DNA from: Streptococcus sp. DD13
GTDB lineage: Bacteria; Bacillota; Bacilli; Lactobacillales; Streptococcaceae
Assembly: GCF_001578875.1 (NCBI RefSeq)
Contig: NZ_KQ969506.1
Location: 264,378 to 310,871, forward strand
Length of the DNA stretch: 46,494 bases
Direction: 5' to 3'
The notes under the pieces were generated by a model, which did no database searches, was not told where the DNA came from, and was given only the letters and a program-made list of their open reading frames with translations. Position numbers and translations under genes: made by a program. Of the stretch, positions 16,009-46,494 are shown in pieces (the first letter of the stretch is position 1; the number at the start of each line of letters is the position of its first letter).

Positions 16009-16077
16009 GGGACATTCTATTGGTTTTTCAAATGTTGGCTCCTCCCCCAATGGCTCTTAGCTAGCCATTCAAAAATA

Positions 16078-16086
16078 TGGTATAAT
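16078..16086 (+). promoter_or_regulatory. Extended -10 promoter of hemW, likely leaderless
   Basis: TGGTATAAT is followed by only six bases (AAACAC) before the hemW ATG at 16093. With the usual 6-8 base spacing, transcription would begin at or next to the A of the ATG. No Shine-Dalgarno sequence can fit. Confidence 0.65.
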
Positions 16087-16092
16087 AAACAC

Positions 16093-17250
16093 ATGTTATC
16101 AAAACCGACGTCTGCCTATATTCATATCCCTTTTTGCACACAGATTTGCTATTACTGTGATTTTTCGAAAGTTTTTATCAAGAACCAGCCTGTAGATGCT
16201 TATCTTCAGGCTCTTATTAAAGAAATCCAGCATTATAAATTACCCCAATTGCGGACTCTTTATATCGGAGGTGGGACACCATCTGCTCTCTCCGCTTCTC
16301 AACTCGACTATCTTCTGACCAACTTATCAAAAGAAATTGATCTCAGTCACATTGAGGAGTTTACCATTGAAGCCAATCCAGGTGATTTAACGAAGGAGAA
16401 AATTCAAGTGCTTCAGGCATCGGCCTGTAATCGTGTCTCCCTCGGGGTGCAGACTTTTGATGATGGGATGCTCAAGCGGATTGGTCGAAGTCACAATCGT
16501 CAGCAGATTTATGAAACCATTGAGGCCTTAAAAGAAGCGGGTTTGACCAATATCTCCATTGACCTGATTTATGCCCTACCGGACCAGACCTTAGACCAGG
16601 TAAAAGACAATGTAGCGCGTGCTTTAGACCTAGATATCCCCCATCTGAGTCTTTACAGCCTTATCCTTGAGCAACACACCATCTTTATGAATCGTCAAAA
16701 GCGGGGCCAACTTCATTTGCCTGGAGAGGACGTGGAATCAGAGATGTTTGAGTATATCCTGTCCGAACTAGAGGCACATGGATTTGAACATTATGAGATT
16801 TCGAATTTTACCAAGCCAGGCTTTGAAAGTCGTCACAATCTCATGTATTGGGATAATGCTGAGTACTATGGTTTAGGAGCTGGGGCTTCCGGCTATCTAG
16901 CTGGGATGCGCTACCGTAATCGGGGGCCTATCCAGCATTATTTGACTTCCATCCAAGAAAAGGGGCATGCCCGCCTGCATGAGGAACAGCTCACTCAAAA
17001 GGAAATGATGGAAGAGCAGATGTTTCTAGGCTTGAGGAAGAAGGCTGGGGTTTCCATCACAGACTTTCAAACCAAGTTTGGTGTCAGTTTTGACCGGGTT
17101 TATGGGCCGATTGCTGACCGATTAAAAGAAGAGGGGCTTTTACAAGAGGAGGGCGATCGTTTACGGATGACCAAGCGAGGTCTGTTCCTCGGTGATACGG
17201 TCGCGGAGAGATTTATTTTAGATGAAGGGAGTTATGGACTATGGGATTAA
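16093..17250 (+). CDS. hemW: HemW-type radical SAM protein
   Basis: Radical SAM protein of the HemW group (related to HemN, but thought to be a heme chaperone rather than coproporphyrinogen oxidase). The 385 residues start with the cluster motif CTQICYYC: Cys15, Cys19 and Cys22, spaced CxxxCxxC. GGGTPS near residues 57-62 binds SAM, and the C-terminal HemN_C wing runs from about 290. The fourth cysteine of true HemN (CxxxCxxCxC) is absent: the motif continues CDF. No heme biosynthesis gene is visible nearby, which fits a chaperone role in a streptococcus that takes up heme. The last 10 bases overlap the thioesterase start. Confidence 0.93.
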   Translation: MLSKPTSAYIHIPFCTQICYYCDFSKVFIKNQPVDAYLQALIKEIQHYKLPQLRTLYIGGGTPSALSASQLDYLLTNLSKEIDLSHIEEFTIEANPGDLTKEKIQVLQASACNRVSLGVQTFDDGMLKRIGRSHNRQQIYETIEALKEAGLTNISIDLIYALPDQTLDQVKDNVARALDLDIPHLSLYSLILEQHTIFMNRQKRGQLHLPGEDVESEMFEYILSELEAHGFEHYEISNFTKPGFESRHNLMYWDNAEYYGLGAGASGYLAGMRYRNRGPIQHYLTSIQEKGHARLHEEQLTQKEMMEEQMFLGLRKKAGVSITDFQTKFGVSFDRVYGPIADRLKEEGLLQEEGDRLRMTKRGLFLGDTVAERFILDEGSYGLWD

Positions 17251-17987
17251 TTTATAAAGAGGAATTTACCATTCCCTACAGTATGTCGGATGTCAACCAT
17301 TTAGCCAATTTACCGGCCTTGCTAGGAGAATGTATTTCGGTATCGGGACGTCAGTCCATCGCTCTAGATAATAGCGATGATTGGGTCTTTGAAAACTATG
17401 GTCTGGTGTGGATCATTACGGATCATGATATTCAGGTCAACCATCTTCCTCGCTTGTATGAGACGGTTGTCATTGAGACTGAAGCCTTGGCCTACAACAA
17501 GTTCTTTTGTTACCGTGCTTTTCGCGTCTTGGACCAGGAAGGTCAGCTCTTGGTTGATATCTGCAGTAGCTTTGCTCTCCTTGACTGGGAAAGCCGAAAA
17601 GTTCACCCTGTTTTGCCCGAAATTGTAGCGTGTTACCAAGCGGATTTTGAGAAGAAGTTGCGTCGGGGACCCAAATATTCTACTTTAGATCATTTCGCGA
17701 GCGAAGACTATCGGGTTCGGTTTTATGACATTGACATGAATGGACATGTCAATAATGGACGCTATATTGAATGGGTCTATGAGGTTATGGGATTTGATTT
17801 TCTATCCCACCACATCCCGAAACGGTTGCAACTCAAGTACTCAAAAGAGGTCTCACCGGGTGGTTTGATTCAGTCACGCTATGAGCTGGACGGATTGACC
17901 AGCCAGCATGAAATTGTCTCAGATGGACAAGTTAATGCTCAGGCGATTGTTCGCTGGCAAAATGTGGAGGAGGATTATGTCTCATAA
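17241..17987 (+). CDS. Acyl-ACP thioesterase (FAT family)
   Basis: Predicted to hydrolyse acyl-acyl carrier protein to free fatty acid, setting chain termination of type II fatty-acid synthesis in the cytosol. The 248 residues form a double hot-dog fold of the FatA/FatB-like family. The N-terminal half begins YKEEFTIPYSMSDVNH, and the second half holds VRFYDIDMNGHVNNGRYIEWVYE (about 155-177), where the Asp, Asn and His cluster is the family's catalytic region. Its start overlaps hemW by 10 bases and its end overlaps the NUDIX gene by 11, so translation is tightly linked. The chain-length preference cannot be told. Confidence 0.9.
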   Translation: MGLIYKEEFTIPYSMSDVNHLANLPALLGECISVSGRQSIALDNSDDWVFENYGLVWIITDHDIQVNHLPRLYETVVIETEALAYNKFFCYRAFRVLDQEGQLLVDICSSFALLDWESRKVHPVLPEIVACYQADFEKKLRRGPKYSTLDHFASEDYRVRFYDIDMNGHVNNGRYIEWVYEVMGFDFLSHHIPKRLQLKYSKEVSPGGLIQSRYELDGLTSQHEIVSDGQVNAQAIVRWQNVEEDYVS

Positions 17988-29202: not shown

Positions 29203-30519
29203 TTATGAGCTGGAATTGGTAGGAATCAAGATTTTTACATGAACCCAATCTCCTTTTTGCCGAAAGGTCATGTGGCCACCATATTTTTTGGCGATGTAAT
29301 CCATACTCTTTAAACCATAGCCATGAGCCTCTTTGTCTTTTTTTGAAGTAGTTGGGAAATCAGCTAGATGATCCTGCAGATGGTGAGGAAAATAGTTGTC
29401 AAAACGAAAGACCATAAACTGACTGTAAGGGGCGATTTTTACAGTGATCAGCCGTTGATCCAGGTTAGAAATCTTTTCCACTGCCTCGATAGCATTGTCA
29501 ATAGCATTGCCAATGAGGGTCGATAAATCAATCACATCCATGAAATCTAGACCAGCACCATTCACGAGACAGGTGAAATTGATATCATTGTGCAAACAGT
29601 AGTGGTTTTTCTGGGTTAAAATGGTGTCCAAAACGGGATTTCCAGTGTTAACCTTGGCTTCAAAATTTTGAATGGCTTCATTAATCTCGCTGAAGTACCG
29701 TTGTCTACGTTTATGATCAGCTTCTTGTTCTAAAATGGCTAATTGATGCTTGAGATCATGGACTTTACGACCAATCATTTCACTATTTTCTTGGTAAGCT
29801 TGGTATTGCTTGTACTGGAGTTGAAACATTGAATGAATAGAGGTTAGTTCTTCTTTGAGATAGCGCTCATGCTGCAAGGTCTCCTGGGTCAGTAATAGTA
29901 AAATTCCGGAGACATTGATCGTCGTCCGTAAAATAAAAATGCTCGTCGAGTCTCTGAATTGCTCCGTATGGTTGAGCAGAAAGCCAGAGTTGGAAAGAAC
30001 GAAAATTGCTAATGAGGTGAAACAGGCGGTGTAGACATCGCGTATTTCAATGATCGATTCTAAATCACTCGTCGAGAGCTTTCGGTTTTGCCAATAGAGG
30101 ATGGATAATGTCAATCCGCCAAATAGGAACATAAAGCTGGCTTGACTCCATCCTGAGTCATAAGGGCTTTTATAAAGAAGAAGGCAGTAGAGATGCCAGG
30201 AGACAGAAGCCACAAGCTCTGCTGCGATAAAGGATTTAGCCGTTTGATACAGCTGCAGGGAGAGCTTTGAGACGCCTAAGAGCCGAATAGAGAGAAACAT
30301 CCAGACAATATTTAGGAGGATTCCTGGAATCCAGAAAATTAAAGGGAGTTGTCCTGCAAACAATTGGAGGATCATCTGAGCGCATAAGAGGATCAAAATC
30401 CGAAGGAGACCCTTTTTAAGCCCCAGATGCTTCAGGGAATCCATGGCGATGATGCAGCAGGCGGCACTTTCGGCTAAGGCTGTGTAGATGCGCGGAATAT
30501 CAGGAAAAGTGTTCATCAT
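29203..30519 (-). CDS. AgrC/HPK10-like sensor histidine kinase
   Basis: Membrane sensor of 438 residues. The first 210 residues have six or seven hydrophobic helices with little extracellular loop, as in peptide-sensing kinases of the AgrC/ComD/BlpH group. A coiled region (about 215-250) leads to the phosphoacceptor His254 in KVHDLKHQL. The GHKL ATPase domain carries the N box IGNAIDNAIEAV and the G-box segment GYGLKSMDYIAKKYGG. The classical F box is weak, as is usual for this class. Its ATG overlaps the stop of the response regulator gene (ATGA). No small double-glycine peptide gene or processing protease lies nearby, so the signal is unknown. Confidence 0.93.
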   Translation of the reverse strand: MMNTFPDIPRIYTALAESAACCIIAMDSLKHLGLKKGLLRILILLCAQMILQLFAGQLPLIFWIPGILLNIVWMFLSIRLLGVSKLSLQLYQTAKSFIAAELVASVSWHLYCLLLYKSPYDSGWSQASFMFLFGGLTLSILYWQNRKLSTSDLESIIEIRDVYTACFTSLAIFVLSNSGFLLNHTEQFRDSTSIFILRTTINVSGILLLLTQETLQHERYLKEELTSIHSMFQLQYKQYQAYQENSEMIGRKVHDLKHQLAILEQEADHKRRQRYFSEINEAIQNFEAKVNTGNPVLDTILTQKNHYCLHNDINFTCLVNGAGLDFMDVIDLSTLIGNAIDNAIEAVEKISNLDQRLITVKIAPYSQFMVFRFDNYFPHHLQDHLADFPTTSKKDKEAHGYGLKSMDYIAKKYGGHMTFRQKGDWVHVKILIPTNSSS

Positions 30520-31241
30520 AAGAGGGTATCTCCGATATATTCGGTCAAAGCTTTCATAAAGTCTTTCTTACGAGGGCGACTGACTGGTATGGTATCTCCA
30601 GCTACTGTAATCAGATTTCCTTGCGTTTGTTCCACGTAGGCGAGGTTCACGATAAATCCAGAATTACAGCGGAAAAAGGAGTGACCATCAAGGGAGCTTT
30701 CTAACTTTTTGAGGGTTGTCGTAGTCGTCAAGATTTGCTCTCCATAGTGGATATGGATGGAATGCCCTTCGCTTTCAATGTAGGTAATCTCTGATTGAGG
30801 GATTTTATAGGTTTTGTTCTTGTTTTTAATGTATAAAAACTGTTCCTGCTCTGCATCGGACGGCAGCTTGCGAAGGATTTTTTTGAAATGCTCCTCAAAC
30901 ACAAAGGCAGTCAACGGCTTTAAGAGGAAATCAATGGCATCCACTGAATAGCCCTGGATGGCTACTTGGGAATGGTTGGTCACAAAGACGATCAAGACAT
31001 CGGGGTCGACTTCACGGATTTTTTTGGCGGTTGTCATCCCATCCATAATAGCCATCTCGACATCCAAATAAATGACGTCATATTGACGTTGATAATCACT
31101 GGTAATGCCAAGTCCGTCATTAAAGTAGTGAAGGGAAACAGAGACCCCATGCTCCTTTGCAGCATTTACGATATAGTTGTTTAATTTCTTTTGCTCTTGA
31201 AGTTGGTCTTCGACAATGGCGATATGTATGGTTTGTTTCAT
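30516..31241 (-). CDS. LytTR-family response regulator
   Basis: The 241-residue transcription factor has a receiver domain (1-125) with Glu11-Asp12, phosphoacceptor Asp60 in IYLDVEMAIMDG, Thr88 and Lys108. A LytTR DNA-binding domain follows (about 140-238: YIKNKNKTYKIPQSEITYIES, FFRCNSGFIVNLAYVEQ and PVSRPRKKDF). These regulators, such as AgrA, ComE and BlpR, bind pairs of 9-bp half-sites about two helical turns apart. Exactly such a pair lies 43 bases upstream of this gene, between it and the GH3 operon. It is co-transcribed with the sensor kinase. AAAGGA precedes the ATG. Confidence 0.95.
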   Translation of the reverse strand: MKQTIHIAIVEDQLQEQKKLNNYIVNAAKEHGVSVSLHYFNDGLGITSDYQRQYDVIYLDVEMAIMDGMTTAKKIREVDPDVLIVFVTNHSQVAIQGYSVDAIDFLLKPLTAFVFEEHFKKILRKLPSDAEQEQFLYIKNKNKTYKIPQSEITYIESEGHSIHIHYGEQILTTTTTLKKLESSLDGHSFFRCNSGFIVNLAYVEQTQGNLITVAGDTIPVSRPRKKDFMKALTEYIGDTLL

Positions 31242-31248
31242 ATCCTTT

Positions 31249-31278
31249 AGTATAGCATGAATTGACTCATTTTAACAA
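31249..31278 (-). promoter_or_regulatory. Promoter of the two-component genes
   Basis: On the minus strand TTGTTA (31278-31273), an 18-base spacer and TATACT (31254-31249). The upstream edge is only 5 bases from the nearer LytTR half-site, so the same sites could adjust this promoter too. Confidence 0.55.
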
Positions 31279-31283
31279 AATGA

Positions 31284-31313
31284 ACAGGTTATGCAGATAA
31301 ATGAACAGTTTAT
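31284..31313. promoter_or_regulatory. Paired LytTR-type binding sites
   Basis: Two direct repeats within AAATGAACAGGTTATG and AAATGAACAGTTTATG place ACAGGTTAT at 31284-31292 and ACAGTTTAT at 31305-31313. They are 21 bases apart, two helical turns. The second fits the LytTR half-site consensus (W M M G T T N R K) at all positions; the first differs at one. The downstream edge is about 10 bases from the -35 position of the GH3 promoter, the usual place for an activator of the ComE/AgrA type. Confidence 0.78.
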
Positions 31314-31323
31314 GAAGAAAGGG

Positions 31324-31352
31324 TTTTCTTTTCATTGATTTGTCGCTATACT
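31324..31352 (+). promoter_or_regulatory. Activator-dependent promoter of the GH3-GtrA-GH3 operon
   Basis: TATACT (31347-31352) is a fair -10, but the expected -35 at 31324-31329 reads TTTTCT, far from consensus. That pattern, together with the LytTR sites just upstream, suggests it needs an activator. An AGGAGG ribosome site precedes the ATG at 31394. Confidence 0.55.
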
Positions 31353-31393
31353 AAAAACAAGAAAGGGCTTACAAAGTCAAATAGGAGGTTCTC

Positions 31394-34327
31394 ATGATCA
31401 ATCGAAATCAACAAAGAAGTCTACTCGCAGTGATTGTGTCCATGTCCTTTATTGGTTCACCCGTGTCTGCTGCAGATACCTATCCAAGTAGCTATCAGTC
31501 CTGGGATGCTGAAACAGTTGTTCGCTACACGCTTGTCTTAGCGACCATTGCAGTCGTAGCTGCTATCGTTTTCGGGATTTACCGTATTGTCAAAATCAAA
31601 TCCCTGAAGTCGCTCAAACGCCGGATTAGTTTTGGACTGTCTGCCTTACTAGGGATCCTTGTCATTGCTGCTAATGTTGCAGTAAGTGCGTATACCAATG
31701 TCATCGATGCTTATTTTGCACCCAGTTATGCAGATCAAGCAGCCATAAAGGAGACAAGTGCTGTTTCAAGAAAGTTGGTCTCATCGATCCAGGAAGAAGG
31801 AAGCGTCTTACTCGAAAATAAAAACAAGGCTCTTCCATTAAAGGATGAAACGAAAGTCAATGTATTTGGAATCTCATCCGTAAAATTGACCTATGGCGGG
31901 TCAGGGTCAGGAGCAGCCGATGAGTCGCAAAACGTCGACTTACAAACATCTCTCAAAGATGCAGGATTCGAGGTCAATGATGAATTAACAGACTTCTATA
32001 AAAAACACCTGCCGGAAAAGAAAAAAGAGAATGTCTTTTCTTTGAATGGCGGCGATTATAATATCTATGAGCCAGCACAATCTGAATACTCAGAGGACCT
32101 GATGGCCAATGCCAAGAAATTTTCAAATACAGCTATTTTTGTCGTATCACGAAATGGTGGTGAGGGAGCAGACCTTCCTCAGGATATGAAGGATTACAAA
32201 CAAGGGGACGCTGGAAAGCATTACCTTGAGTTGCAAACTGTCGAAAAAGAATTGCTTCAAAAAGTAGAAGAAAATTTTGATAAAGTCATCGTCCTCGTCA
32301 ATTCTTCGAATGCCATGGAGCTTGGCTTCTTAAAAGACTCAAAGGTAGATGCAGCGCTTTGGATCGGGGGACCTGGTGTGACAGGGATGTCTGCTGTAGG
32401 AAAAATCCTGAAAGGGGAAGTCAATCCATCTGGACGATTGGTGGATACTTACGCTTATGATTTGGAAAGCAACCCAACTTTCTTTAATACGGGAGATTTC
32501 ACCTATACCAATACAGGTTATTCGATAAAAGGCATGGATGGTAAGGAGAAAGAGGCCTTTCATCACTTCGTTCATTATCAAGAAGGAATCTATCTTGGCT
32601 ACCGCTACTACGAGACCAGATTTGTCGATAATCAAACTGGTCAAGTGGATGAGTCAAACTACAACCAGACAGTTCAGTACCCATTTGGATATGGTTTAAG
32701 CTATACTAGCTTCAAACAAGAAATGACGGGACTGACAGAAGCCGATGGTAAGATAACCGTCCAAGCTAAACTAACGAATACTGGGGATGTGGCTGGAAAA
32801 GAAGTCGCTCAAGTGTATTTCACAGCCCCATATACCCAAGGAGGCATTGAAAAATCTCATGTCGTTTTGGCTGGATTTGCTAAAACAAAGGATTTGGCAC
32901 CAGGGGAGTCACAAACCCTCAATATCGAATTTAACCGGGATGATCTTGCATCTTATGATTACAAAAATGCCAAGGCTTATGTCCTTGATAAGGGAGATTA
33001 TCAGATTAAATTGATGAATAATGCCCATCAAGTATTGGATAGCAAGACGTATACCGTGGCACAAACAGAAATCCGCAACCAACGTTCAACTGATAAACAA
33101 GCTGTGACCAATCAGTTTGACGATGCCGCAGGAGATGTGAGTTATGCAAGCCGTGCAGACTGGGCTGGAACACTGCCAACCAAACGAACAGAAAATAAGA
33201 AAGCTACTGAAACTCAAATCAAAGAACTAGACGTCAAAAACGACCGCGTATCGGATTCGGGTGCAAAAGCCAGTGAAGCAACCGGTCAAAAAGGAGATCT
33301 TCGCCTTCTTGACCTAAAAGATGCAGACTATGATGATCCGCGCTGGGACAAGTTATTGGATCAAATGTCTACTGCTGAAATGGCTAAATTGATTGGCTAT
33401 GGCGGATATACGACGGGTGCGGTAGCATCTGTAGACAAGCCAGCCACTCTGGACATCGATGGGCCTGCTGGAGTAAACGGAATTTTCCAAAATATCCACG
33501 GCGTCCAATACAACTCCGAAGTGGTGGTGGCTTCTACTTGGAACACAGAATTGGCAAAAGAGATGGGAGATGCCTTTGCAAAAGAAGCAAAAGCACATGG
33601 TGTGGTCGGTCTGTATGGTCCTGCGGTCAACATCCACCGTTCACCATTCTCTGGTCGAAACTTTGAGTACTATTCTGAAGATCCAACGATTTCTGGTAAA
33701 ATGGCTTCAGCTTTGTCTCAAGCCGCACTTAAAAATGGCGTTTATACCTATACCAAACACTTTGCCTTGAATGATCAAGAAGACAACCGGATCGGTGTGG
33801 CCACTTGGGCGAATGAACAAGCCATCCGTGAAATTTACCTTAAAGCATTTGAAATTCCTGTAAAAGATGGTGGTTCAACAGCTATTATGTCCGCCTTTAA
33901 CCGCTTAGGGACTCTTTGGGCTGGTGGTAATAAAGCTTTGTTACAAACTGTCTTGCGCGATGAATGGGGCTTTAAAGGAATGGTCATCACGGACTACTTT
34001 ATGCCAGGTTCTTATATGAGTTCTGATCAGGCTATTCGTGCTGGTGGTGACTTGATGCTCTCTACTCTAGGGGCTCTTCCATCTGAAAAGTCAACTGGAA
34101 CAGAAGAAGGTCAAGCGGCCTTACGCAAAGCAAGCAAGAATATCTTGTACACCGTCGCTCACTCAGCAGCCTTTGACCTTTATTCACCGAAGACAAAATG
34201 GTGGTTAGTGATCTTGATCGTGGTGAATCTACTTCTAGTTGCCTTGACAGCCTTTGGCTTAATCAAATCAACAGCTAGAAAAGCAGAAAAAACAGTTCAG
34301 AAAGAAAAAAGTAGCAAATTAGGATAG
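31394..34327 (+). CDS. Membrane-anchored GH3 beta-glucosidase with permuted domain order
   Basis: Glycoside hydrolase family 3 protein of 977 residues. It begins with a signal-like hydrophobic stretch (about 7-26) and two further helices (43-64, 79-100), and has a last helix at about 935-957. The catalytic parts are in reverse order to the normal family. The GH3 C-domain comes first (about 130-365) with the probable acid/base Glu257 in RNGGEGADLP. A fibronectin-III-like domain (about 430-560) and a low-complexity linker follow. The (beta/alpha)8 barrel then runs from about 640 to 905, with KHFALNDQE and nucleophile Asp867 in VITDYF. Both catalytic residues are present, so it should be active on the outer face. 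The substrate is unknown. It is first gene of the operon with gtrA-like and GH3 genes. Confidence 0.9.
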   Translation: MINRNQQRSLLAVIVSMSFIGSPVSAADTYPSSYQSWDAETVVRYTLVLATIAVVAAIVFGIYRIVKIKSLKSLKRRISFGLSALLGILVIAANVAVSAYTNVIDAYFAPSYADQAAIKETSAVSRKLVSSIQEEGSVLLENKNKALPLKDETKVNVFGISSVKLTYGGSGSGAADESQNVDLQTSLKDAGFEVNDELTDFYKKHLPEKKKENVFSLNGGDYNIYEPAQSEYSEDLMANAKKFSNTAIFVVSRNGGEGADLPQDMKDYKQGDAGKHYLELQTVEKELLQKVEENFDKVIVLVNSSNAMELGFLKDSKVDAALWIGGPGVTGMSAVGKILKGEVNPSGRLVDTYAYDLESNPTFFNTGDFTYTNTGYSIKGMDGKEKEAFHHFVHYQEGIYLGYRYYETRFVDNQTGQVDESNYNQTVQYPFGYGLSYTSFKQEMTGLTEADGKITVQAKLTNTGDVAGKEVAQVYFTAPYTQGGIEKSHVVLAGFAKTKDLAPGESQTLNIEFNRDDLASYDYKNAKAYVLDKGDYQIKLMNNAHQVLDSKTYTVAQTEIRNQRSTDKQAVTNQFDDAAGDVSYASRADWAGTLPTKRTENKKATETQIKELDVKNDRVSDSGAKASEATGQKGDLRLLDLKDADYDDPRWDKLLDQMSTAEMAKLIGYGGYTTGAVASVDKPATLDIDGPAGVNGIFQNIHGVQYNSEVVVASTWNTELAKEMGDAFAKEAKAHGVVGLYGPAVNIHRSPFSGRNFEYYSEDPTISGKMASALSQAALKNGVYTYTKHFALNDQEDNRIGVATWANEQAIREIYLKAFEIPVKDGGSTAIMSAFNRLGTLWAGGNKALLQTVLRDEWGFKGMVITDYFMPGSYMSSDQAIRAGGDLMLSTLGALPSEKSTGTEEGQAALRKASKNILYTVAHSAAFDLYSPKTKWWLVILIVVNLLLVALTAFGLIKSTARKAEKTVQKEKSSKLG

Positions 34328-34368
34328 GGAGGAGTTTTCCTCCTTGTCTCTTTTTAAAGGAGAAGGGT

Positions 34369-34848
34369 ATGAAAGAATGGATCGAAAAACATCCAGACTT
34401 ATGGGAGTTTATTAAATTTAATATTTTATCAAATGTCGCAACGATTACCAATTTTTGTGTTCTTTGGCTGGCTTCGAACTTTCTATTTACCCGCTTTGCC
34501 CATCAGAGTTTTAACTGGTTTATCTTTCAGTATGATGTCAAAAGCGGAGGACTAAATGGTTTCTTGTCCTTCTTATTAGCCTATATTTGTGCACAAATAG
34601 TGAACTATATTGTGCAACGAACACTCGTATTTGGCGCTCAAAACGATTTCAGAAAAACCCTTCATTGGTATATTCTAACGGTTCTTGTAGCTGGGGTTTT
34701 ATCGATTGTGTTGCCCCCTTATACGACGGCTATCTTCCAATCCTGTGGGTTCGGACTTGGGATTGCGCAAATGTTGGCCAATGTCATCAATATTGTAGTA
34801 CAAGTGGTGATCAACTATCCCATGATGAAATTTGTCATTATGAGATAG
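34369..34848 (+). CDS. GtrA-like membrane protein
   Basis: The 159-residue protein has four hydrophobic helices (about 14-36, 60-80, 95-115 and 125-150) and the GtrA-family pattern FIKFNILSNVATITNF...NYIVQRTLVF. GtrA-type proteins are thought to move undecaprenyl-phosphate-linked sugars across the membrane, or to assist glycosyl transfer to surface polymers. No GtrB-like glycosyltransferase lies nearby. AAAGGAGAAGG precedes the ATG. The place between two GH3 genes suggests a role in a surface glycan or glycolipid that those enzymes trim, which is inference. Confidence 0.88.
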   Translation: MKEWIEKHPDLWEFIKFNILSNVATITNFCVLWLASNFLFTRFAHQSFNWFIFQYDVKSGGLNGFLSFLLAYICAQIVNYIVQRTLVFGAQNDFRKTLHWYILTVLVAGVLSIVLPPYTTAIFQSCGFGLGIAQMLANVINIVVQVVINYPMMKFVIMR

Positions 34849-34923
34849 AGGAGCTATTTGATAGGAGAATGGATGAGCTAGAAATAGATCTTATAGCAGG
34901 ATAAAAGAATTGGGAGATAAAAA

Positions 34924-37323
34924 ATGAAGCACAAGCATATCATTGACACATTGACGCTGGAGGAAAAGGCTGCGCTCATGTCAGGGAAATCCGTCTGGGA
35001 AACGAAAGATATCCCTGAAAAGGGAATCCCATCTATCTTTCTATCAGATGGTCCCCACGGGATTCGAAAACAGGAAGGGGATGGAGATCATCTCGGATTG
35101 AATGCGTCTATCCCGGCGACCTGCTTTCCGACAGCAGCGACATTGGCGAATAGTTGGGATCCGGAATTAGTTGAAGAAGTCGGGAGCGCCCTTGGGGCAG
35201 AAGCAAGAAGTCTTGGTGTCCAGATGGTGCTTGGTCCAGGTCTAAATATCAAACGGAGTCCCCTATGTGGGCGAAACTTTGAATATTATTCAGAGGATCC
35301 CTATCAATCTGGGAAGATGGCTGCAGCAATGGTTCGTGGCATCCAATCACAAGGTATTGCGGCAACACCAAAGCATTTTGCGGTGAATAGTCAGGAACTG
35401 CGCCGAATGGCTTCCGATTCGATTGTTGATGAGCGGACGTTACGGGAGCTGTATCTGACTGGCTTTGAAATAGCAGTAAAAGAAGGTCATCCCAAAGCCC
35501 TCATGAGCTCTTATAATTTGATCAATGGTGTCTATGCGAATGAAGACAAGAAGCTCCTTCAAGATATTTTGCGAGATGAGTGGGGCTTTGATGGCCTTGT
35601 CGTATCAGACTGGGGAGGCTCCAATGACCATGTAAAAGGTGTAGCAAGCGGGAGCCACTTAGAGATGCCTGGGACCAAGTCCATCGGACAAAAGGAAATT
35701 GTAGATGCTGTCCAATCAGGCTACTTGCAGGAAGAGCTCTTGGATCAGCGCGTGGATGAACTGTTGGATGTGGTTTTCGAGCTTGCGGTGGTAGACCGTC
35801 AGCCAATTGATCCTAGCAAACAACATGACTTGGCTCGAAAAGCCGCTAGAGAAAGCATTGTCCTCTTGAAAAATGAAGAAAAGGCATTGCCCTTGTCCAA
35901 GGGTGAACGTGTCGCCCTGATTGGAGAATTTGCCCAACATCCCCGTTACCAAGGGGCAGGGTCTTCCTTGATCCAGGCAAAGAACCTTGAAAACACCTTG
36001 AGTGCTATTCAGGATTATCCTCTTCAGTTTGTAGGATTTGCCAGTGGTTACCAGCGGACGGATCGGCCGGATGAAGGACTGATCGATGAAGCAGTTCGCC
36101 TTGCAAAACAAGCGGACACTCTTCTTTTATACCTAGGTTTAGATGAAATCAGTGAAAGTGAAGGCTTGGACCGCAGTCATTTGTCTCTTCCGAAAAATCA
36201 ATTGCAATTGGTAGAAGCGCTTGTCAAACTGGAGAAGAAAATTGTTGTCGTGCTTTCTGCAGGTTCTGTACTCGATCTATCTTGGGATGAGCAGGTGGAT
36301 GCAGTGGTTCATGGCTATCTTTCCGGAGAAGCAGGAGCCACAGCGCTCTTAGATGTCCTAACCGGACGTGCGAATCCATCTGGCAGACTAAGTGAAAGCT
36401 ATCCGTATGCTTTATCAGACATTCCATCCTCACGTGATTTTCCTGCTAAAGGCTTGTATTCCTACTACCGAGAAGCCTTGTATGTTGGCTATCGCTATTT
36501 TACCAGCGTAGAGCGAGCGGTTAAGTATCCTTTTGGTTTTGGTTTATCTTACAGTCACTTCACCTATCATGACTTGCAGGTGAAAGCAGATGGTATCGAG
36601 CTTTCTCTTACGAATACAGGGGATGTTGCAGGAGCTGAAGTCGTCCAATTTTATGTCGGAAAAAAAGATTCCAAGATATACCGTCCATCCTTGGAATTAA
36701 AAGGCTTCCAAAAAGTTTTCCTAAAAGCAGGTGAAAGCAAGCGCGTCCAGATTCCATTTGACGAGTGGACTTTCCGTTATTTCAATGTTGAAACGGGGGC
36801 ATTTGAAGTAGAAGAGGGCTTGTACCAGCTGTATGTCGGAGCAAATGTCGAGGAATTGTCCTTATCTGCTGAAGTCAACCGAAAAGGGACGACAGACCGG
36901 TATCCTAGCCAAGAAAACCTTCCATCCTATTGGAGTGGTCATGTGGAAGAAGGATCAGATCAGGAATTTGCAGTTTTATTAGGCCATGAACTTCCGATCG
37001 AAGGGATCGCGAAAGGCCGAGATCTAGGCTTGAATGATCCTTTGCTTAAAATGCAATATGCCAAAAGTTGGATAGCAAGAAGGGTCTATCATCTTTTGGA
37101 CCGACGTCTTCAAAAGGCGGAGAGAAAAGGGATCCCTGATTTAAATCTACTTTTTTTGTACAATATGCCTTTTCGAGCGCTTGCCAAGATGACAGGAGAC
37201 CGCATAGACCAAGCAATGGTCACCGCTATCTTACACATCGTAAATGGTCACTTTTTCAAGGGTCTAGGGAAGTTAGCTTCAGCCTATCGAGCTAAGAGGC
37301 ATTATCAAAAGACTCTATCTTGA
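34924..37323 (+). CDS. Cytosolic GH3 beta-glucosidase, normal domain order
   Basis: The 799-residue enzyme has no signal peptide. The barrel comes first (about 1-290) with LSDGPHGIRKQ, GRNFEYYSEDP, KHFAVNSQE and nucleophile Asp229 in VVSDWGG. The C-domain follows (about 315-530), with the acid/base Glu in SESEGLDRSHLSLP (Glu411 or Glu413). A fibronectin-III-like domain runs to about 660, and an extra 130-residue C-terminal tail rich in basic residues follows. Length and order match many lactic acid bacterial beta-glucosidases. It could hydrolyse beta-glucosides or oligosaccharides released or imported by the upstream system. GGGAGA precedes the ATG. It ends the operon. Confidence 0.93.
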   Translation: MKHKHIIDTLTLEEKAALMSGKSVWETKDIPEKGIPSIFLSDGPHGIRKQEGDGDHLGLNASIPATCFPTAATLANSWDPELVEEVGSALGAEARSLGVQMVLGPGLNIKRSPLCGRNFEYYSEDPYQSGKMAAAMVRGIQSQGIAATPKHFAVNSQELRRMASDSIVDERTLRELYLTGFEIAVKEGHPKALMSSYNLINGVYANEDKKLLQDILRDEWGFDGLVVSDWGGSNDHVKGVASGSHLEMPGTKSIGQKEIVDAVQSGYLQEELLDQRVDELLDVVFELAVVDRQPIDPSKQHDLARKAARESIVLLKNEEKALPLSKGERVALIGEFAQHPRYQGAGSSLIQAKNLENTLSAIQDYPLQFVGFASGYQRTDRPDEGLIDEAVRLAKQADTLLLYLGLDEISESEGLDRSHLSLPKNQLQLVEALVKLEKKIVVVLSAGSVLDLSWDEQVDAVVHGYLSGEAGATALLDVLTGRANPSGRLSESYPYALSDIPSSRDFPAKGLYSYYREALYVGYRYFTSVERAVKYPFGFGLSYSHFTYHDLQVKADGIELSLTNTGDVAGAEVVQFYVGKKDSKIYRPSLELKGFQKVFLKAGESKRVQIPFDEWTFRYFNVETGAFEVEEGLYQLYVGANVEELSLSAEVNRKGTTDRYPSQENLPSYWSGHVEEGSDQEFAVLLGHELPIEGIAKGRDLGLNDPLLKMQYAKSWIARRVYHLLDRRLQKAERKGIPDLNLLFLYNMPFRALAKMTGDRIDQAMVTAILHIVNGHFFKGLGKLASAYRAKRHYQKTLS

Positions 37324-41542: not shown

Positions 41543-41671
41543 GTGTTTCCTTTTCCTAGCCTTAGATTTTCCATAATTTGTGTAGCAGATGACTAAAAGA
41601 AAGACTGGTTTTGTGCGGACAAGTTTGCTAGTTTAGAACTAGAAAAAACACAAAAGAAAGTGAGGGATAGC

Positions 41672-42706
41672 ATGCAGATTAAGAGACAAATCGTCGAAAC
41701 CATTGGAGATCAAGACATCGAGCAAATCATGCTCATCAATGACCAAGGAACCTGCGCACGTTTCTTGAGTCTTGGGGCGACCTGGCAGTCTTTTACAGTC
41801 AAGGACCAGGAGGGGCGTGAAAAGGAATGCATACTGGGTCTAGAACGTCCGTCTGATTATCTAAGGAGCCACTTATGTGCAGGTCAAGTAGTGGGACGAG
41901 TCGCTGGGCGCATCAAGGAGGGACGAATTGATCTAGATGGGACAAGTCTTCAATTGCCTTGTAATCAGAAGGGGCATTGCTTGCACGGAGGGCCAGAAGG
42001 ATTTCACACTCAAGTCTGGAAAGTAGAGACAGAACTCCTTCCTTCCCTTGCGAGGCTCACCTTTTCCTATCACGCTAAAGAAGCTGTGGATGGCTTTCCA
42101 GGGGACCTTTGGGTCTTGGTGACTTACGAGCTGGATGAAACAACTCAACTGACTCTGACCTTTACAGCTAGAGATGCAACGAAAGAAACCTTGTTTAATC
42201 CGACGAACCATGTGTATTTTAACCTGAGTGAGCGTCAGGACTTGGAGACTCACAGCTTGAAGATCCGGTCTCAAGAGTACTTGGAAGTGGATCAAGACTT
42301 AATTCCGACAGGGAGACGGATCCCAATCAGTGGCACGGCGTTTGACTTTGGACAAGCAAGAGATCTTGGACCGGCTCTTGGTGAAATGGGGGGACTGGAC
42401 CATGCCTTTATAGTAGGAGAAGACGCAAGGACCCCGATTGCAGTCCTTTGCGAGCGGGAGAGTGGGGACCAAATAGAAGTGTATTCGGATCGATCAGCTT
42501 TAGTCGTCTATAGTTTAAACGATCCTGAAGAGCTGACCTACTTTACAAGAGATCAGGGAAAAGCTTGTCAGAAACACCAGGGACTGGCTCTCGAAGCCCA
42601 GTTTGCTCCAGACGCGATCCACCATCCAGAATGGGGAGACACCAGGCTCCATCCAGGACAGACAAAGGAGTATCAGATTCGATTTGTCTACAAAAGAGGA
42701 AATTAG
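41672..42706 (+). CDS. galM: Aldose 1-epimerase (galactose mutarotase)
   Basis: Interconverts alpha and beta anomers of galactose or glucose for the Leloir pathway. The 344 residues are typical. Substrate-binding Arg lies in GRVAGRI, a catalytic His in CLHGGPEGFHTQVW, the conserved NPTNHVYFNLS near 175-185 holds the second His, and the catalytic Glu is in LALEAQFAPDA. I chose the ATG at 41672, after a GTGAGGGA ribosome site; the in-frame GTG at 41660 overlaps that site. It precedes nagB-nagA and the beta-galactosidase, which would feed it beta-galactose. No clear promoter was seen. Confidence 0.95.
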   Translation: MQIKRQIVETIGDQDIEQIMLINDQGTCARFLSLGATWQSFTVKDQEGREKECILGLERPSDYLRSHLCAGQVVGRVAGRIKEGRIDLDGTSLQLPCNQKGHCLHGGPEGFHTQVWKVETELLPSLARLTFSYHAKEAVDGFPGDLWVLVTYELDETTQLTLTFTARDATKETLFNPTNHVYFNLSERQDLETHSLKIRSQEYLEVDQDLIPTGRRIPISGTAFDFGQARDLGPALGEMGGLDHAFIVGEDARTPIAVLCERESGDQIEVYSDRSALVVYSLNDPEELTYFTRDQGKACQKHQGLALEAQFAPDAIHHPEWGDTRLHPGQTKEYQIRFVYKRGN

Positions 42707-42783
42707 ATTTTGACCCTATGGGTCTGAAGGGGAGGTTGGATGGATGGGTCTGTCTCGTATAGAGAAGGATGCCTTTTCTATAA

Positions 42784-42802
42784 AAAGGTGAAAAACACCT
42801 TT
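42784..42802 (+). terminator. Weak hairpin between galM and nagB
   Basis: AAAGGTG pairs with CACCTTT around AAAAA. There is no following T run (AGTTGG), so termination may be poor. Confidence 0.4.
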
Positions 42803-42822
42803 AGTTGGTTTTGGTAGAAATC

Positions 42823-42851
42823 TTGACAAAAACCATCAAAAGGTCTATGAT
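42823..42851 (+). promoter_or_regulatory. Promoter of nagB-nagA
   Basis: A perfect TTGACA (42823-42828), 17-base spacer and TATGAT (42846-42851). The operator palindrome begins within the -10. Confidence 0.85.
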
Positions 42852-42865
42852 TGGTATATACCAAT
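42850..42865. promoter_or_regulatory. NagR-type (GntR/HutC) operator
   Basis: ATTGGTATATACCAAT is a perfect 16-bp palindrome. It overlaps the end of the -10 and the likely start site. Its TGGTnTAnACCA core fits sites bound by NagR/DasR regulators, which release DNA when glucosamine-6-phosphate or N-acetylglucosamine-6-phosphate accumulates. No nagR gene is in the window, so it would act from elsewhere. Confidence 0.85.
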
Positions 42866-42879
42866 ACAAGGAGGAAATC

Positions 42880-43584
42880 ATGGAAGTTATCAAAGTAAAG
42901 AACCAGATCGAAGGAGCAGAAAAAGCAGTTGCGATCTTACGGGAATCGTTGGCGAATGGAGCAAAAACTCTGGGACTAGCGACAGGGTCGACACCGATTG
43001 AATTCTACAAGCAAATTGTTGCTAGTGATCTGGATTTCTCAGACATCATCTCGGTTAACTTGGATGAGTATGTAGGTTTGGGCAAGGAAAGCTCTCAATC
43101 CTATGTCACATTTATGGAGGAGCATCTCTTTTCGCACAAACCGTTTAAACATTCTTACCTTCCAAATGGCTTAGCGGCTGATTTAGATAAGGAAGTTCGG
43201 GAGTACAATCAATTGATTGCTGAAAATCCAGTTGATTTTCAGATTTTAGGGATTGGAGATAATGGGCACATTGGTTTTAATGAACCGGGAACCAGTTTTG
43301 AATCGTTGACACATGTGGTGGATTTGACGCCGTCGACGATTCATGCCAACGCTCGCTTCTTTGCGAATGAAGAGGAAGTACCGAAGCAAGCCATTTCTAT
43401 GGGGATTGCCAATATCTTAGCGGCAAAAACCATTGTCATCATGGCCTATGGGGCAAATAAGGCCAATGCTGTGAAGGCTATGCTTCGTGGTCAGGTGACC
43501 GAAGACGTGCCAGCAAGTGCCCTGCAAGGTCATCCTCGTGTTTACGTAATTGTAGACCAAGAAGCTGGGAAGGAACTAGACTAG
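42880..43584 (+). CDS. nagB: Glucosamine-6-phosphate deaminase
   Basis: Converts glucosamine-6-phosphate to fructose-6-phosphate and ammonia, sending amino sugars to glycolysis. The 234 residues are the short Gram-positive form. Phosphate-binding LATGSTP is near 35-41, catalytic Asp62 is in NLDEYVGL and His130 is in [13 protein letters not shown] chose the ATG at 42880 after a perfect AAGGAGG; the earlier in-frame ATG at 42805 is upstream of the promoter. The operator and consensus promoter directly before it suggest amino-sugar induction. nagA starts 15 bases after the stop. It opposes GlmM in directing glucosamine-6-phosphate. Confidence 0.97.
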
Positions 43585-43599
43585 AATCGAGGGGATAGC

Positions 43600-44760
43600 A
43601 TGGTAGTGTACATTAAGGCTAAGACCTTTTATTTTCCCTATTCTGTCCAAAAGGGAGGCTATTTGGAAGTCAAGGATGGGAAGTTTGGTGCCTATCGAAA
43701 AGACATACCAGATGGAGCTCAGGTACTAGACTATAGCTCTTACCAGATCGCACCAGGCTATGTGGACACTCATATCCATGGTTATGCGGGAGCAGATGTC
43801 ATGGATAATCAGCAAGATGGGCTAGAAACCATGAGTCGTGGCCTGCTATCGACCGGGGTAACCAGTTTTTTACCGACCACTTTGACAGATACCGCTGCCC
43901 ATTTTGAAGCGGTTTGTAAGACGATTGGTGATTTTGCTGGTCAAGAAACCGGTGCTAAAATTCAAGGAATCTATCTGGAAGGTCCGTATTTTTCGGAGGA
44001 GTACAAGGGGGCCCAAAATGAGAAATATATGCGGGACCCGTCCTTGGAAGAGTTCGCCTCGTGGCAGGAAGCTTCTGGTCATTTGATCAAAAAAATCGCC
44101 CTAGCCCCCGAACGAGAAGGAGCCAGGGACTTTATTCGGAAAGTGACAGATGAGGGAGTTGTCGTTGCGATTGGTCATTCCAATGCCACCTACGATCAGG
44201 CTGTCGAAGCCGTTGAAGCTGGTGCTTCGGTCTGGGTCCACGCTTATAATTGCATGCGCAATATGACTCACCGAGAGTTAGGGGTTGTAGGGGCTATGTA
44301 TAGTCTACCAGGGACGACTGCGGAGTTGATTTGCGATGGGCATCACGTAGACCCCAAGGCTTGTCAGGTCCTAGCTAGGCAAAAAGGGAAGGCTGAAATC
44401 GCCCTTATTACCGACTGCATGCGCGCAGGGGGATTGCCTGATGGGGACTATATGCTTGGAGAATTACCGGTGACCGTTGCTGAAGGAACAGCTCGACTCG
44501 TCCATGGAGGGAATCTGGCAGGCTCTATCTTGCAACTCAAAGATGGTGTTAAGAACATTATTAAGTGGGGATTGGCCAGCCCGGAAGAAGCTATACGGAT
44601 GGCTAGTCTTCAACCAGCTAAGTCGGTTGGGATAGAGGATCGATGCGGTCAGATTAAAGCAGGTTTAGCGGCTGACTTCCTAGTCTTAAATGATGACTTT
44701 GAGCTAGTCGAGACCTACTTAGACGGTCGGTCCGTCTATAAGGCAAGGGATCTTCAGTAG
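43600..44760 (+). CDS. nagA: N-acetylglucosamine-6-phosphate deacetylase
   Basis: Removes acetate from N-acetylglucosamine-6-phosphate to give the substrate of NagB. The 386-residue amidohydrolase has APGYVDTHIHGYAGADVMD (about 49-67) with the HxH motif, the metal-binding Glu in IYLEGPYFSEE, VAIGHSNATYDQA and WVHAYNCM with further metal His, and the catalytic Asp in LITDCMRAGG. GAGGGGA precedes the ATG. It lies 15 bases after nagB and ends at a strong terminator. The two form a complete amino-sugar 6-phosphate pathway; uptake genes are not in the window. Confidence 0.97.
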   Translation: MVVYIKAKTFYFPYSVQKGGYLEVKDGKFGAYRKDIPDGAQVLDYSSYQIAPGYVDTHIHGYAGADVMDNQQDGLETMSRGLLSTGVTSFLPTTLTDTAAHFEAVCKTIGDFAGQETGAKIQGIYLEGPYFSEEYKGAQNEKYMRDPSLEEFASWQEASGHLIKKIALAPEREGARDFIRKVTDEGVVVAIGHSNATYDQAVEAVEAGASVWVHAYNCMRNMTHRELGVVGAMYSLPGTTAELICDGHHVDPKACQVLARQKGKAEIALITDCMRAGGLPDGDYMLGELPVTVAEGTARLVHGGNLAGSILQLKDGVKNIIKWGLASPEEAIRMASLQPAKSVGIEDRCGQIKAGLAADFLVLNDDFELVETYLDGRSVYKARDLQ

Positions 44761-44812
44761 AAAGGGCTTTTCTACAAATTATAGAAGAATAAGAGTCATT
44801 TTAGGAAATGAA

Positions 44813-44843
44813 AAAGAAAGCGTTGAGAACGCTTTCTTTTTTT
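44813..44843 (+). terminator. Terminator of nagA
   Basis: AAAGAAAGCGTT (44813-44824) pairs with AACGCTTTCTTT (44828-44839) around GAG and runs into seven T. The -10 of the next gene starts at its very end. Confidence 0.93.
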
Positions 44844-44851
44844 GGTATAGT
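44843..44851 (+). promoter_or_regulatory. Extended -10 of the beta-galactosidase gene
   Basis: TGGTATAGT directly follows the T run of the nagA terminator, 22 bases before the ATG. An AAGGAGA site lies between. The -35 would lie inside the terminator stem. Confidence 0.6.
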
Positions 44852-44872
44852 GAAGTGAAAAGGAGACGGAAT

Positions 44873-46494
44873 ATGAGACGTTTACAGGGAAGAAGAGAAC
44901 TGAAGAAGGATTGGTATTTTAGTCAGACAGTGGATCAGGAAAGAGCTTTGTCGCCGGATTTTCGGGCAGCAGATTGGCAAGCCATCAGTCTCCCTCATGA
45001 TTGGAGTATCTTTAATGATTTTGATCCCCACTCACCTGCTCAAAATGAAGCAGGTCAGCTCAATGGAGGGACAGCCTGGTATCGGACGAGCTTTTTACTG
45101 GATACGGATGCTTCACAAAGGACCACTCGAATTTGCTTTGATGGGGTTTACATGAATGCCAAGGTCTTTGTGAATGGCCAGCTGGTTGGTCACTATCCCA
45201 GTGGTTATACAGGGTTTTCATATGATATTTCAGCTTATCTGCGCAACGATGGCCAGGCTGAACAGCTGGTGGTTTATGTAGAAAATCAGCAACCCAGCAG
45301 CCGCTGGTACTCAGGAAGTGGGATTTATCGCGATGTCTACTTATTGGTCGAGGACCTTGTGCACATTCCAGAGATGGGGATTACAATTACCAGTCCTGAT
45401 CTGGAAAAGGAGCAAGAGGGTCTTGTCAAGACCCGACTAGTGACGGAAGTCGTGAATCGAGGGGCGGTCGAACCATCGGTGTATATAGAGCAGTTTATTC
45501 TTGATGCGAGAGGGAAGGTCGTGGCTAACGGTCAGACTACAGTTGCAAAAACGGTAGGGGCAAATAGGTCCTGTCTTTTTGAACAAGATTTACTCGTCTT
45601 CCATCCGGACTTGTGGGATGTAGCGGATCAAACACCGGTTTTATACAGTTTGGTTACCCGACTTTATCGCGACGGACAACTTCTCTCCGAACGAACAGAT
45701 CGCTTTGGCTATCGTTATATGGATTGGACTGCTGATGAGGGCTTCTTTCTAAATGGTCGCTCTTTGAAGATCCATGGGGTCTGTCTGCACCACGATCACG
45801 GGGCCTTGGGAGCAGTGGAAAATGAAAAGGCAGAGTATCTCCGTCTGAAACAGATGAAGGAGATGGGGGCCAATGCGATTCGGACCAGTCACAATCCTGC
45901 TAGTCCTCAGACCTTGAAATGGGCGGCCCAACTTGGTTTGTTGGTTCAAGAAGAAGCTTTTGATACCTGGTATGGTGGGAAGAAAACCTTTGACTATGGA
46001 CGGTTTTTCGAAGAAAAAGCGACTCATCCAGATGCCCGAGACGGGGATAGTTGGTCGGACTTTGACCTTCGGAGAATGGTAGTAGCTGGAAGAAATAATC
46101 CTGCCATCTTTATGTGGTCTATCGGAAATGAAGTCAGTGAGGCAAATGGTGATACGCATTCTCTAGAAAGCGTTCAACGCTTAGTATCTGTGATTAAAGA
46201 AGTGGATTCTAGTCGCTATGTGACCATGGGGATGGATGCCTTTCGTTTTGGAGACGGACAAGGAGGTCACGAGAAAATCGCTGCCCATTTAGATGCCGTA
46301 GGACTCAATTATGCGGAAGACAATTTTGAAAATATTCGGCACCAGCACCCGGATTGGCTCTTGTATGGATCTGAGACATCCTCTGCGACGCGTAGTCGGG
46401 GGAGTTATTTCCGCCCTCAGGAGGAATGGATAGGCGACAATCGCCCTCTCCGTCGATTTGAACAATCAGACTATGGAAATGACCGTGTTCCATG
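44873..46494 (+). CDS. GH2 beta-galactosidase, N-terminal 540 residues (runs off window)
   Basis: Glycoside hydrolase family 2 enzyme, cut by the window end. MRRLQGRRELKKDWYFS begins the sugar-binding jelly-roll domain, which includes LPHDWSIFNDF, WYRTSF and GIYRDVYL. The immunoglobulin-like domain covers about 175-280, and the barrel starts near 285 with GVCLHHDHGALG and IRTSHNPA. The acid/base is Glu420 in SIGNEVSE and the nucleophile probably Glu501 in YGSETSS, so both catalytic residues are present. There is no signal peptide in the first 30 residues, so it looks cytosolic, unlike surface BgaA. GAAAAGGAG precedes the ATG. galM nearby would convert its beta-galactose product. No stop is reached. 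Confidence 0.93.
   Translation, partial: MRRLQGRRELKKDWYFSQTVDQERALSPDFRAADWQAISLPHDWSIFNDFDPHSPAQNEAGQLNGGTAWYRTSFLLDTDASQRTTRICFDGVYMNAKVFVNGQLVGHYPSGYTGFSYDISAYLRNDGQAEQLVVYVENQQPSSRWYSGSGIYRDVYLLVEDLVHIPEMGITITSPDLEKEQEGLVKTRLVTEVVNRGAVEPSVYIEQFILDARGKVVANGQTTVAKTVGANRSCLFEQDLLVFHPDLWDVADQTPVLYSLVTRLYRDGQLLSERTDRFGYRYMDWTADEGFFLNGRSLKIHGVCLHHDHGALGAVENEKAEYLRLKQMKEMGANAIRTSHNPASPQTLKWAAQLGLLVQEEAFDTWYGGKKTFDYGRFFEEKATHPDARDGDSWSDFDLRRMVVAGRNNPAIFMWSIGNEVSEANGDTHSLESVQRLVSVIKEVDSSRYVTMGMDAFRFGDGQGGHEKIAAHLDAVGLNYAEDNFENIRHQHPDWLLYGSETSSATRSRGSYFRPQEEWIGDNRPLRRFEQSDYGNDRVP

Follow-up and report, generated by a model that had tools for sequence, protein, structure and literature searches.

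The window analysed here, a 46,494-nt stretch of Streptococcus sp. DD13 (contig NZ_KQ969506.1, positions 264,378 to 310,871; whole genome, 1.72 Mb in 15 contigs), contains genes for a sensor histidine kinase and a LytTR response regulator that diverge from genes for a permuted GH3 glycoside hydrolase (pGH3), a GtrA-family protein, and a second GH3 enzyme (Table 1). A first-pass annotation had described these five genes and a repeat pair between the two divergent groups; open reading frame (ORF) calls and Pfam returned the same coordinates and domains, and the divergent arrangement was confirmed. Domains of the five proteins were assigned with Pfam, and topologies are predictions from hydropathy and AlphaFold2.

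Table 1. Genes and sites of the LytTR system and the GH3 operon in the window
Feature	Coordinates	Strand	Remarks
GHKL sensor histidine kinase (HPK10/AgrC-like)	29203..30519	-	~6 N-terminal hydrophobic segments; His254
LytTR response regulator	30516..31241	-	Overlaps the kinase gene; phosphoacceptor Asp60
LytTR-type direct repeat pair, 21-bp register	31284..31314	+	Upstream of pGH3; kept in streptococcal loci
pGH3, permuted, membrane-anchored, outward-facing GH3 (predicted)	31394..34327	+	Putative acid/base Glu257 and nucleophile Asp867; exchangeable cassette
GtrA-family small membrane protein	34369..34848	+	Pfam
Cytosolic GH3, normal domain order, C-terminal extension	34924..37323	+	Pfam; neither a signal-like nor a transmembrane (TM) segment by hydropathy

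The kinase combines a polytopic N terminus with a GHKL domain (HATPase_c_5, 84.1 bits), and at least 85% of 66 sequences share its His254; the 5TMR_LYT domain, a hallmark of LytS kinases, was not among its Pfam matches. The regulator consists of a receiver (Response_reg, 50.8 bits) and a LytTR domain (71.7 bits), with Asp60 invariant in 18 streptococcal sequences, and the whole window genome yields two LytTR-domain matches. The small membrane protein matched GtrA_DPMS_TM (PF04138) at 37.2 bits, against a cut-off of 26.1.

In pGH3, the Pfam domains run GH3_C (residues 138 to 403), Fn3-like (470 to 540), and GH3_N (683 to 889), that is, the sandwich precedes the FnIII domain and the barrel, and its alignments to two permuted enzymes, 5wug and 5k6l, are collinear. 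An AlphaFold2 model built from a 39-sequence alignment had a mean predicted local distance difference test score (pLDDT) of 89.2, and the six best Foldseek matches to it were permuted beta-glucosidases (5wug/5wvp and 5k6l-o). The predicted topology comprises a signal-like start, a TM hairpin (residues 39 to 68 and 74 to 99), an ectodomain, and a C-terminal TM segment (936 to 960). The permuted order claimed for this enzyme is thus borne out by Pfam, and its outward orientation is supported by the hydropathy profile and the model. Asp867 aligned to Asp242 of 2x40, which is Ala in 2x42, and Glu257 was aligned by phmmer; we take the corresponding reference residues to be the catalytic nucleophile and acid/base. 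Both residues are invariant in the 39 aligned pGH3 sequences, and in a wider set of 112 sequences the acid/base position held Glu in 110 (one Gly, one gap) and the nucleophile position Asp in 107 (five gaps). The possibility that pGH3 is a dead structural homologue was rejected, since the catalytic pair is kept.

The permuted subfamily was defined by the rumen beta-glucosidase/xylosidase GlyA1, which cuts short cello- and xylo-oligosaccharides (PMC5104943). GlyA1-like permuted GH3 beta-glycosidases (PDB 5k6l-o; Paenibacillus barengoltzii 5wug) have in common with pGH3 the sandwich-FnIII-barrel order, a fold that matches over ~850 columns, and the aligned catalytic Asp and Glu. In contrast, pGH3 is only 28 to 29% identical to them, has a predicted N-terminal TM hairpin and C-terminal TM segment, and is accompanied by a LytTR system; the terms transmembrane and signal peptide are absent from the text of the GlyA1 paper.

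Conservation in streptococci and repeat pairs at the operon promoters

A sample of 247 Streptococcus genomes included 20 with the kinase, 18 with GtrA, and 18 with a full-length GH3 orthologue (at least 64% identity). The 18 loci with both GtrA and GH3, those of the window genome and 17 others, all have pGH3, including two (G138 and G147) in which a protein search at 1e-100 missed it and reading of the locus recovered it. In G154, pGH3 is broken into two ORFs and GtrA precedes it. The other two kinase-positive genomes carry remnants with a glycosyltransferase gene (GT2): G221 has a GH3 fragment, and G098 has part of the regulator and a short stretch of GH3. The first-pass annotation would have the neighbourhood kept in other streptococci, and the five-gene set is kept in 18 of the 247 genomes (pGH3 broken in one); chance adjacency was rejected on these 18 conserved loci. 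The usual order is kinase and regulator, divergent from pGH3, GtrA, GH3, and the sixth gene, GT2 (337 to 348 amino acids), which follows GH3 in 17 of the 17 non-window loci. G188 has a second GtrA-pGH3 pair, its pGH3 split. Judged by eye from protein starts, an aldo/keto-reductase-like gene lies behind GT2 in 14 of the 17 loci, with aspS visible behind that gene in 13, and rpsD lies on the kinase side of the fetched stretch in 10.

No peptide gene had been noticed at the window locus, and this absence holds across the 18 loci. The intergenic gaps of 152, 44, and 78 bp (stop codons included) leave little space for one. The larger ORFs of the window locus include no peptide with a processing or export gene, in a search confined to the loci rather than the remaining genomes. 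None of the eight largest small-ORF clusters from the 18 loci looked peptide-like by eye; these clusters overlap either the aldo/keto-reductase-like gene, in another frame, or promoter regions (up to 8 loci). On the evidence of these clusters, the idea that the locus hides a pheromone gene was rejected.

The repeat pair in the window reads ACAGGTTATG-N11-ACAGTTTATG. It had been placed at 31279 to 31314; the pair is indeed present, but it begins at 31284. It is the sole match in the window with at most three mismatches (0.01 expected by shuffling). Over the whole window genome, a slightly looser pattern gave one exact match and one with three mismatches, whereas a reversed control pattern gave five with at most three mismatches; since the control exceeded the pattern at this tolerance (five against two), only the exact match was used. 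In the streptococcal loci, the 21-bp-spaced pair ahead of pGH3 is kept while much of the surrounding intergenic region diverges.

A weight matrix was built from eleven pairs, all from pGH3 promoters (the GtrA promoter in G154), and used at a threshold of 22 bits. The 17 non-window loci (321,109 bases) contained 36 pairs at a spacing of 21, compared with 0, 1, 0, 0, 0, 0, 2, and 0 pairs at control spacings of 17, 18, 19, 20, 22, 23, 24, and 25, respectively. In 34 cases the distance to the gene downstream is at most 400 bp: this gene is pGH3 for 17 pairs (including two in G188), GH3 for 14, and GtrA for 3. The last two pairs fall ~100 bp before the aligned starts of GH3 (G144) and GtrA (G130), inside over-long predicted ORFs. 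Because the matrix was trained only on pGH3- and GtrA-promoter pairs, the GH3 sites are independent of it. At least two sites are present in 15 of the 17 loci; G242, G154, and the window locus have a single site, and the two remnant loci yielded no LytTR pair. In G188 and G196 an ORF is inserted between the regulator and pGH3, yet the site stays beside pGH3. The inserted ORF encodes 405 or 409 amino acids (G188, locus L129, ~15888 to 17382; G196, locus L131, 7571 to 9053).

That the LytTR system regulates the neighbouring GH3 operon, as the first-pass annotation had proposed, is well supported by the conserved sites in relatives, in which two or three of the operon's promoters carry one, and by genome-level co-occurrence. 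The control is probably direct, with the regulator expected to bind these sites; the promoter sites offer a direct experimental test.

The architecture is that of AgrC-AgrA, BlpH-BlpR, and ComD-ComE, in which a GHKL kinase with a polytopic input is paired with a LytTR regulator and direct repeats 21 bp apart. Kinases of the AgrC/ComD/BlpH type usually sense peptides, and the HPK10-type kinase described here could sense one encoded elsewhere, with the GH3 operon as one target of many. Some streptococcal BlpRH loci indeed have no detectable BlpC nearby (PMC9638458). However, this locus differs from the classical systems in that no peptide, processing, or export gene is seen and the adjacent targets are carbohydrate enzymes, and the examined small-ORF clusters hold no peptide-like ORF. 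Moreover, the repeat pairs occur only at this operon in 321 kb around 17 loci, the window genome (the only whole genome scanned) has a single exact match, and the association with pGH3 crosses phyla. We consider peptide quorum sensing quite improbable here. A precedent for a non-peptide ligand is the BtsS-BtsR system (LytS/LytTR), likewise a polytopic kinase with a LytTR regulator, in which BtsS has its pyruvate site within the TM domain (PMC10653868); our kinase, with no 5TMR_LYT match, is not of that subfamily. The locus represents a LytTR system with no peptide gene beside it and a compact set of sites.

Exchange of the pGH3 open reading frame

pGH3 has been swapped, nearly exactly from start to stop codon, between conserved neighbours. 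In a clade of six genomes (G016, G022, G143, G147, G196, and G245), the kinase, regulator, GtrA, GH3, and GT2 are 92 to 100% identical at the same chromosomal locus, whereas pGH3 is 37 to 62% identical between allele types and 90 to 98% identical among G022, G143, and G245, which share one type. For G143 and G016, identities are 98% for the kinase, 100% for GT2, and 62% for pGH3; for G143 and G147, they are 96% for both the kinase and GH3 and 37% for pGH3. The same is seen outside the clade, where G174 and G138 have kinases 94%, GH3s 88%, and pGH3s 39% identical, and within Streptococcus the kinase does not track pGH3 alleles in the identity table. When four different-allele comparisons were made with blastn, the matches broke off no more than ~30 bases from either end of the pGH3 coding sequence; between G143 and G016, an inner pGH3 stretch still matched at 73%. 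The cassettes of G016, G147, G196, and G138 have a G+C content of 36 to 39%, compared with 42 to 43% for the main allele (G143, G174).

Nearest-neighbour distances, the only quantity used from an unrooted tree of 98 pGH3 sequences, placed the G138 allele next to Olsenella-group copies (0.70), that of G147 next to Konateibacter (0.73), and that of G196 next to streptococcal solo kinase-regulator-pGH3 modules (0.28 to 0.31). Three such solo modules (L130, L132, and L134) occur elsewhere in genomes G144 and G230; the stretches fetched around them carry no gene labelled as GtrA, GH3, or GT2, and the G196 allele has its nearest relatives in two of the three. The pGH3 of G188 is mosaic, being 96 to 100% identical to that of G174 over approximately residues 400 to 600 and 28 to 84% identical elsewhere.

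Residues aligned to the sugar site, some of them presumed by us to belong there, are kept in full-length alleles, save position 690 in G138, while residues 868 to 872, which follow the nucleophile, and position 835 vary with allele type. We interpret the alleles as working enzymes, probably with different substrates, placed behind one conserved promoter site. The repeated swaps point to selection on what the surface enzyme recognises. Alternatively, exchange might be driven by conflict, either because phages, competitors, or host immunity recognise the surface enzyme or because the enzyme removes a phage receptor sugar. Whole-ORF replacement between conserved neighbours, nearest relatives in distant taxa, lower G+C content, and a duplicated and mosaic pGH3 in one genome would all fit such a history, but the catalytic residues are kept in full-length alleles, which argues that enzyme function is under selection, and we regard conflict as a most improbable driver.

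Distribution beyond Streptococcus and the linked glycosyltransferase

To place pGH3 in a wider context, we used the best 80 of 207 confirmed loci by pGH3 similarity, three of them streptococcal and near-identical records counted separately. A homologous kinase was present in 55, a regulator in 53, GtrA in 21, GT2 in 9, and a UDP-galactopyranose-mutase-like (Glf-like) gene in 8; the last were outside Streptococcus, mostly in Bacilli, and one member was checked with Pfam. The link between kinase/regulator and pGH3 was found in Bacilli, Clostridia, Olsenella/Tractidigestivibacter, and Bifidobacterium. Of the 122 GH3-like ORFs, 93 were classed as permuted; the counts of permuted genes leave out the others, of which 18 were not permuted and 11 undetermined. 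A kinase or regulator lay within 5 kb of 61 of the 83 long permuted GH3s, 75 of which exceed the TM hydropathy threshold and 8 of which fall below it, but of none of the 10 small soluble ones (787 to 814 amino acids; from nine of loci L083 to L094, plus one more gene in L093). On this ground, kinase, regulator, and pGH3 together appear to be the unit, and some members of the family add GtrA, GH3, and GT2 to it. Kinase and pGH3 distances were correlated over 48 pairs (Mantel r, 0.562; 0 of 2000 permutations; uncorrected for species phylogeny).

Outside Streptococcus, the 21-bp spacing was found in 18 upstream regions, versus 0 to 10 at other spacings, and about half of the 18 look LytTR-like by eye; upstream coding sequence raises the counts at spacings divisible by three, and the test lends weak support. 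Loci of Aerococcaceae, Oceanobacillus, Enterococcus, and Listeria show LytTR-like pairs at the 21-bp spacing. In six Olsenella-group loci (L045, L046, L049, L050, L051, and L090), two pGH3 genes lie ~5 to 6 kb apart with the kinase-regulator pair between them. The Listeria floridensis locus (L038, 13247 to 18360) has its kinase, GH3, and GtrA each split into several ORFs, indicating a decaying copy or sequencing error.

The window genome departs from its relatives in GT2: its orthologue (70% identity) is ~1 Mb distant, between aspS-like and rpsD-like genes, which suggests that the five-gene module moved or arrived separately while GT2 stayed. An empty-site test via the upstream SseB-like neighbour matched 8 of 59 genomes including its own, the other seven at only 31 to 37% identity. 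GT2 was found in 63 of the 247 genomes, which include every one of the 20 with the kinase (hypergeometric 1e-13, relatedness not controlled). The GT2 model (pLDDT, 88.5) had its closest Foldseek matches in glycosyltransferases that act on surface polymers, namely GalT1 (5hea), TarS, RmlT, and TarP; to TarS, TarP, and RmlT, which tailor wall teichoic acid, the fold is similar (E values of ~1e-15 to 1e-11), but identity is only 15 to 18%.

The glf gene was counted by hand in 60 of 63 GT2-positive and 103 of 184 GT2-negative streptococci (Fisher 6e-10, phylogeny not controlled). Among the three GT2-positive genomes without glf, two (G062 and G184) have a broken GT2; GT2 is also broken in G089, where glf is present. 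The glf gene of the window genome lies outside the window, its end 1.2 kb ahead of position 1. UDP-galactofuranose is a candidate donor for GT2, as a lead only. The glycan role proposed in the first-pass annotation is plausible, being strengthened by the linked GT2 and weakly by glf, whereas the beta-glucoside trimming and precursor flipping suggested there are putative; the missing GT2, the exchange of pGH3 cassettes, and the wide kinase/regulator-pGH3 distribution go beyond that annotation. In two loci (L141 and L142, genomes G001 and G097), GT2 occurs in the absence of the operon and at a different site, by eye beside apparent potassium-uptake genes and a YSIRK-type surface protein, which suggests a role of its own.

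Envelope-glycan remodelling and glycoside scavenging as possible functions

The reading that we prefer, and to which we give about an even chance on the gene content and sites described above, is that of an envelope-glycan remodelling operon regulated by a two-component system and having an exchangeable glycosidase. The polytopic kinase would detect a small ligand, probably membrane-borne or carbohydrate-derived, and, by analogy with its family, phosphorylate the regulator at Asp60; the regulator would bind the 21-bp-spaced pairs ahead of pGH3 and, in most relatives, GH3 or GtrA, and so directly activate the operon. The soluble GT2 may load a carrier in the membrane or wall with a sugar, for which galactofuranose is a candidate; GtrA may help to move the carrier-borne sugar; and the cytosolic GH3 and the outward, tethered pGH3 may remove or trim sugars on the two faces. 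pGH3, swapped as a cassette behind the same conserved promoter site, would set the outward specificity.

Several observations weigh against this reading. In many loci outside Streptococcus (Olsenella, Lachnospiraceae, and Bifidobacterium), the fetched stretch contains kinase/regulator and pGH3 but neither GtrA nor GT2, which means that pGH3 does not necessarily work together with GT2. Conversely, 43 streptococcal genomes have GT2 without the kinase, and the association of GT2 with glf may mirror phylogeny. In the window locus no pair was found ahead of GH3, unlike in most relatives, and there is no LytTR pair in the 18 kb around the distant GT2, which probably lies outside the regulon in this genome. 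Extra ORFs, unannotated, separate GtrA and GH3 in G144, G130, and G230. GT2 enzymes of the GtrB/CsbB type have C-terminal TM helices and make polyprenyl-phosphate sugars. In the GT2 of the window genome, no segment exceeds the hydropathy threshold, i.e., it shows no TM helix; the analogy to a GtrA flippase is therefore incomplete, and a classical GtrAB pair was rejected. Finally, both GH3s could equally be catabolic.

This last point leads to glycoside scavenging, the main rival because GlyA1 cuts short cello- and xylo-oligosaccharides (PMC5104943). In such a scheme, beta-glycosides from the diet or the host would be broken down by pGH3 and the cytosolic GH3, with GtrA or some other carrier moving the products; the kinase would sense a glycoside or aglycone, and pGH3 alleles would follow the available glycosides. 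The founding of the permuted subfamily on a rumen enzyme (PMC5104943) and the permuted beta-glucosidases as closest structures speak for it, as do the gut and rumen origin of many of the 80 loci, an MFS_2-type sugar transporter in the fetched stretch of 8, and a GH2-type enzyme in that of 7 (one member per cluster Pfam-checked). However, most streptococcal loci have no recognised transporter family between kinase and GT2 (the flanks and the extra ORFs of G144, G130, and G230 being unannotated), the constant partners in streptococci are GT2 and GtrA, which are genes of a biosynthetic type, and the predicted topology anchors both ends of pGH3, which sets it apart from the 10 small soluble permuted GH3s, all of them without a kinase or regulator nearby. 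Scavenging is a serious though somewhat unlikely alternative to envelope-glycan remodelling.

A more specific form of the remodelling reading borrows from GtrA-GtrB-GtrC glycosylation, which likewise unites a GtrA protein, a GT2 enzyme, and one highly variable extracytoplasmic partner. In a regulated pathway for decorating the surface, pGH3 might be the third component and the one that sets specificity, working as either a GH3-fold transglycosidase or a trimming enzyme in that role on carrier-linked sugar supplied by GT2 and GtrA; whole-ORF allele exchange would then change the surface glycotype under the same LytTR switch, much as variable gtrC stands beside conserved gtrA and gtrB. In GtrABC, however, the variable partner is a polytopic GT-C enzyme rather than a GH3, and GT2 here lacks TM helices; a Pfam scan confined to the five window-locus proteins matched no polytopic GT-C-type enzyme. 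We hold this proposal to be a long shot.

Titles and opening parts of abstracts in the open-access literature, among the matches listed, gave no paper describing a LytTR system with a permuted GH3 or GtrA, and abstract openings on glucosylceramide with GH3 contained no description of this locus. The pGH3 proteins form a widespread, membrane-anchored permuted GH3 branch for which no functional description was found and which is tied to one regulatory module across two phyla. In streptococci (S. suis, S. gallolyticus, S. ovis, and others), the operon is conserved while one of its enzymes has several times been replaced by very distant homologues. Farther downstream in the window (41660 to 46492), protein starts resemble, by eye, those of an aldose epimerase, NagB, NagA, and a GH2 enzyme, and these are possible sugar-processing genes.

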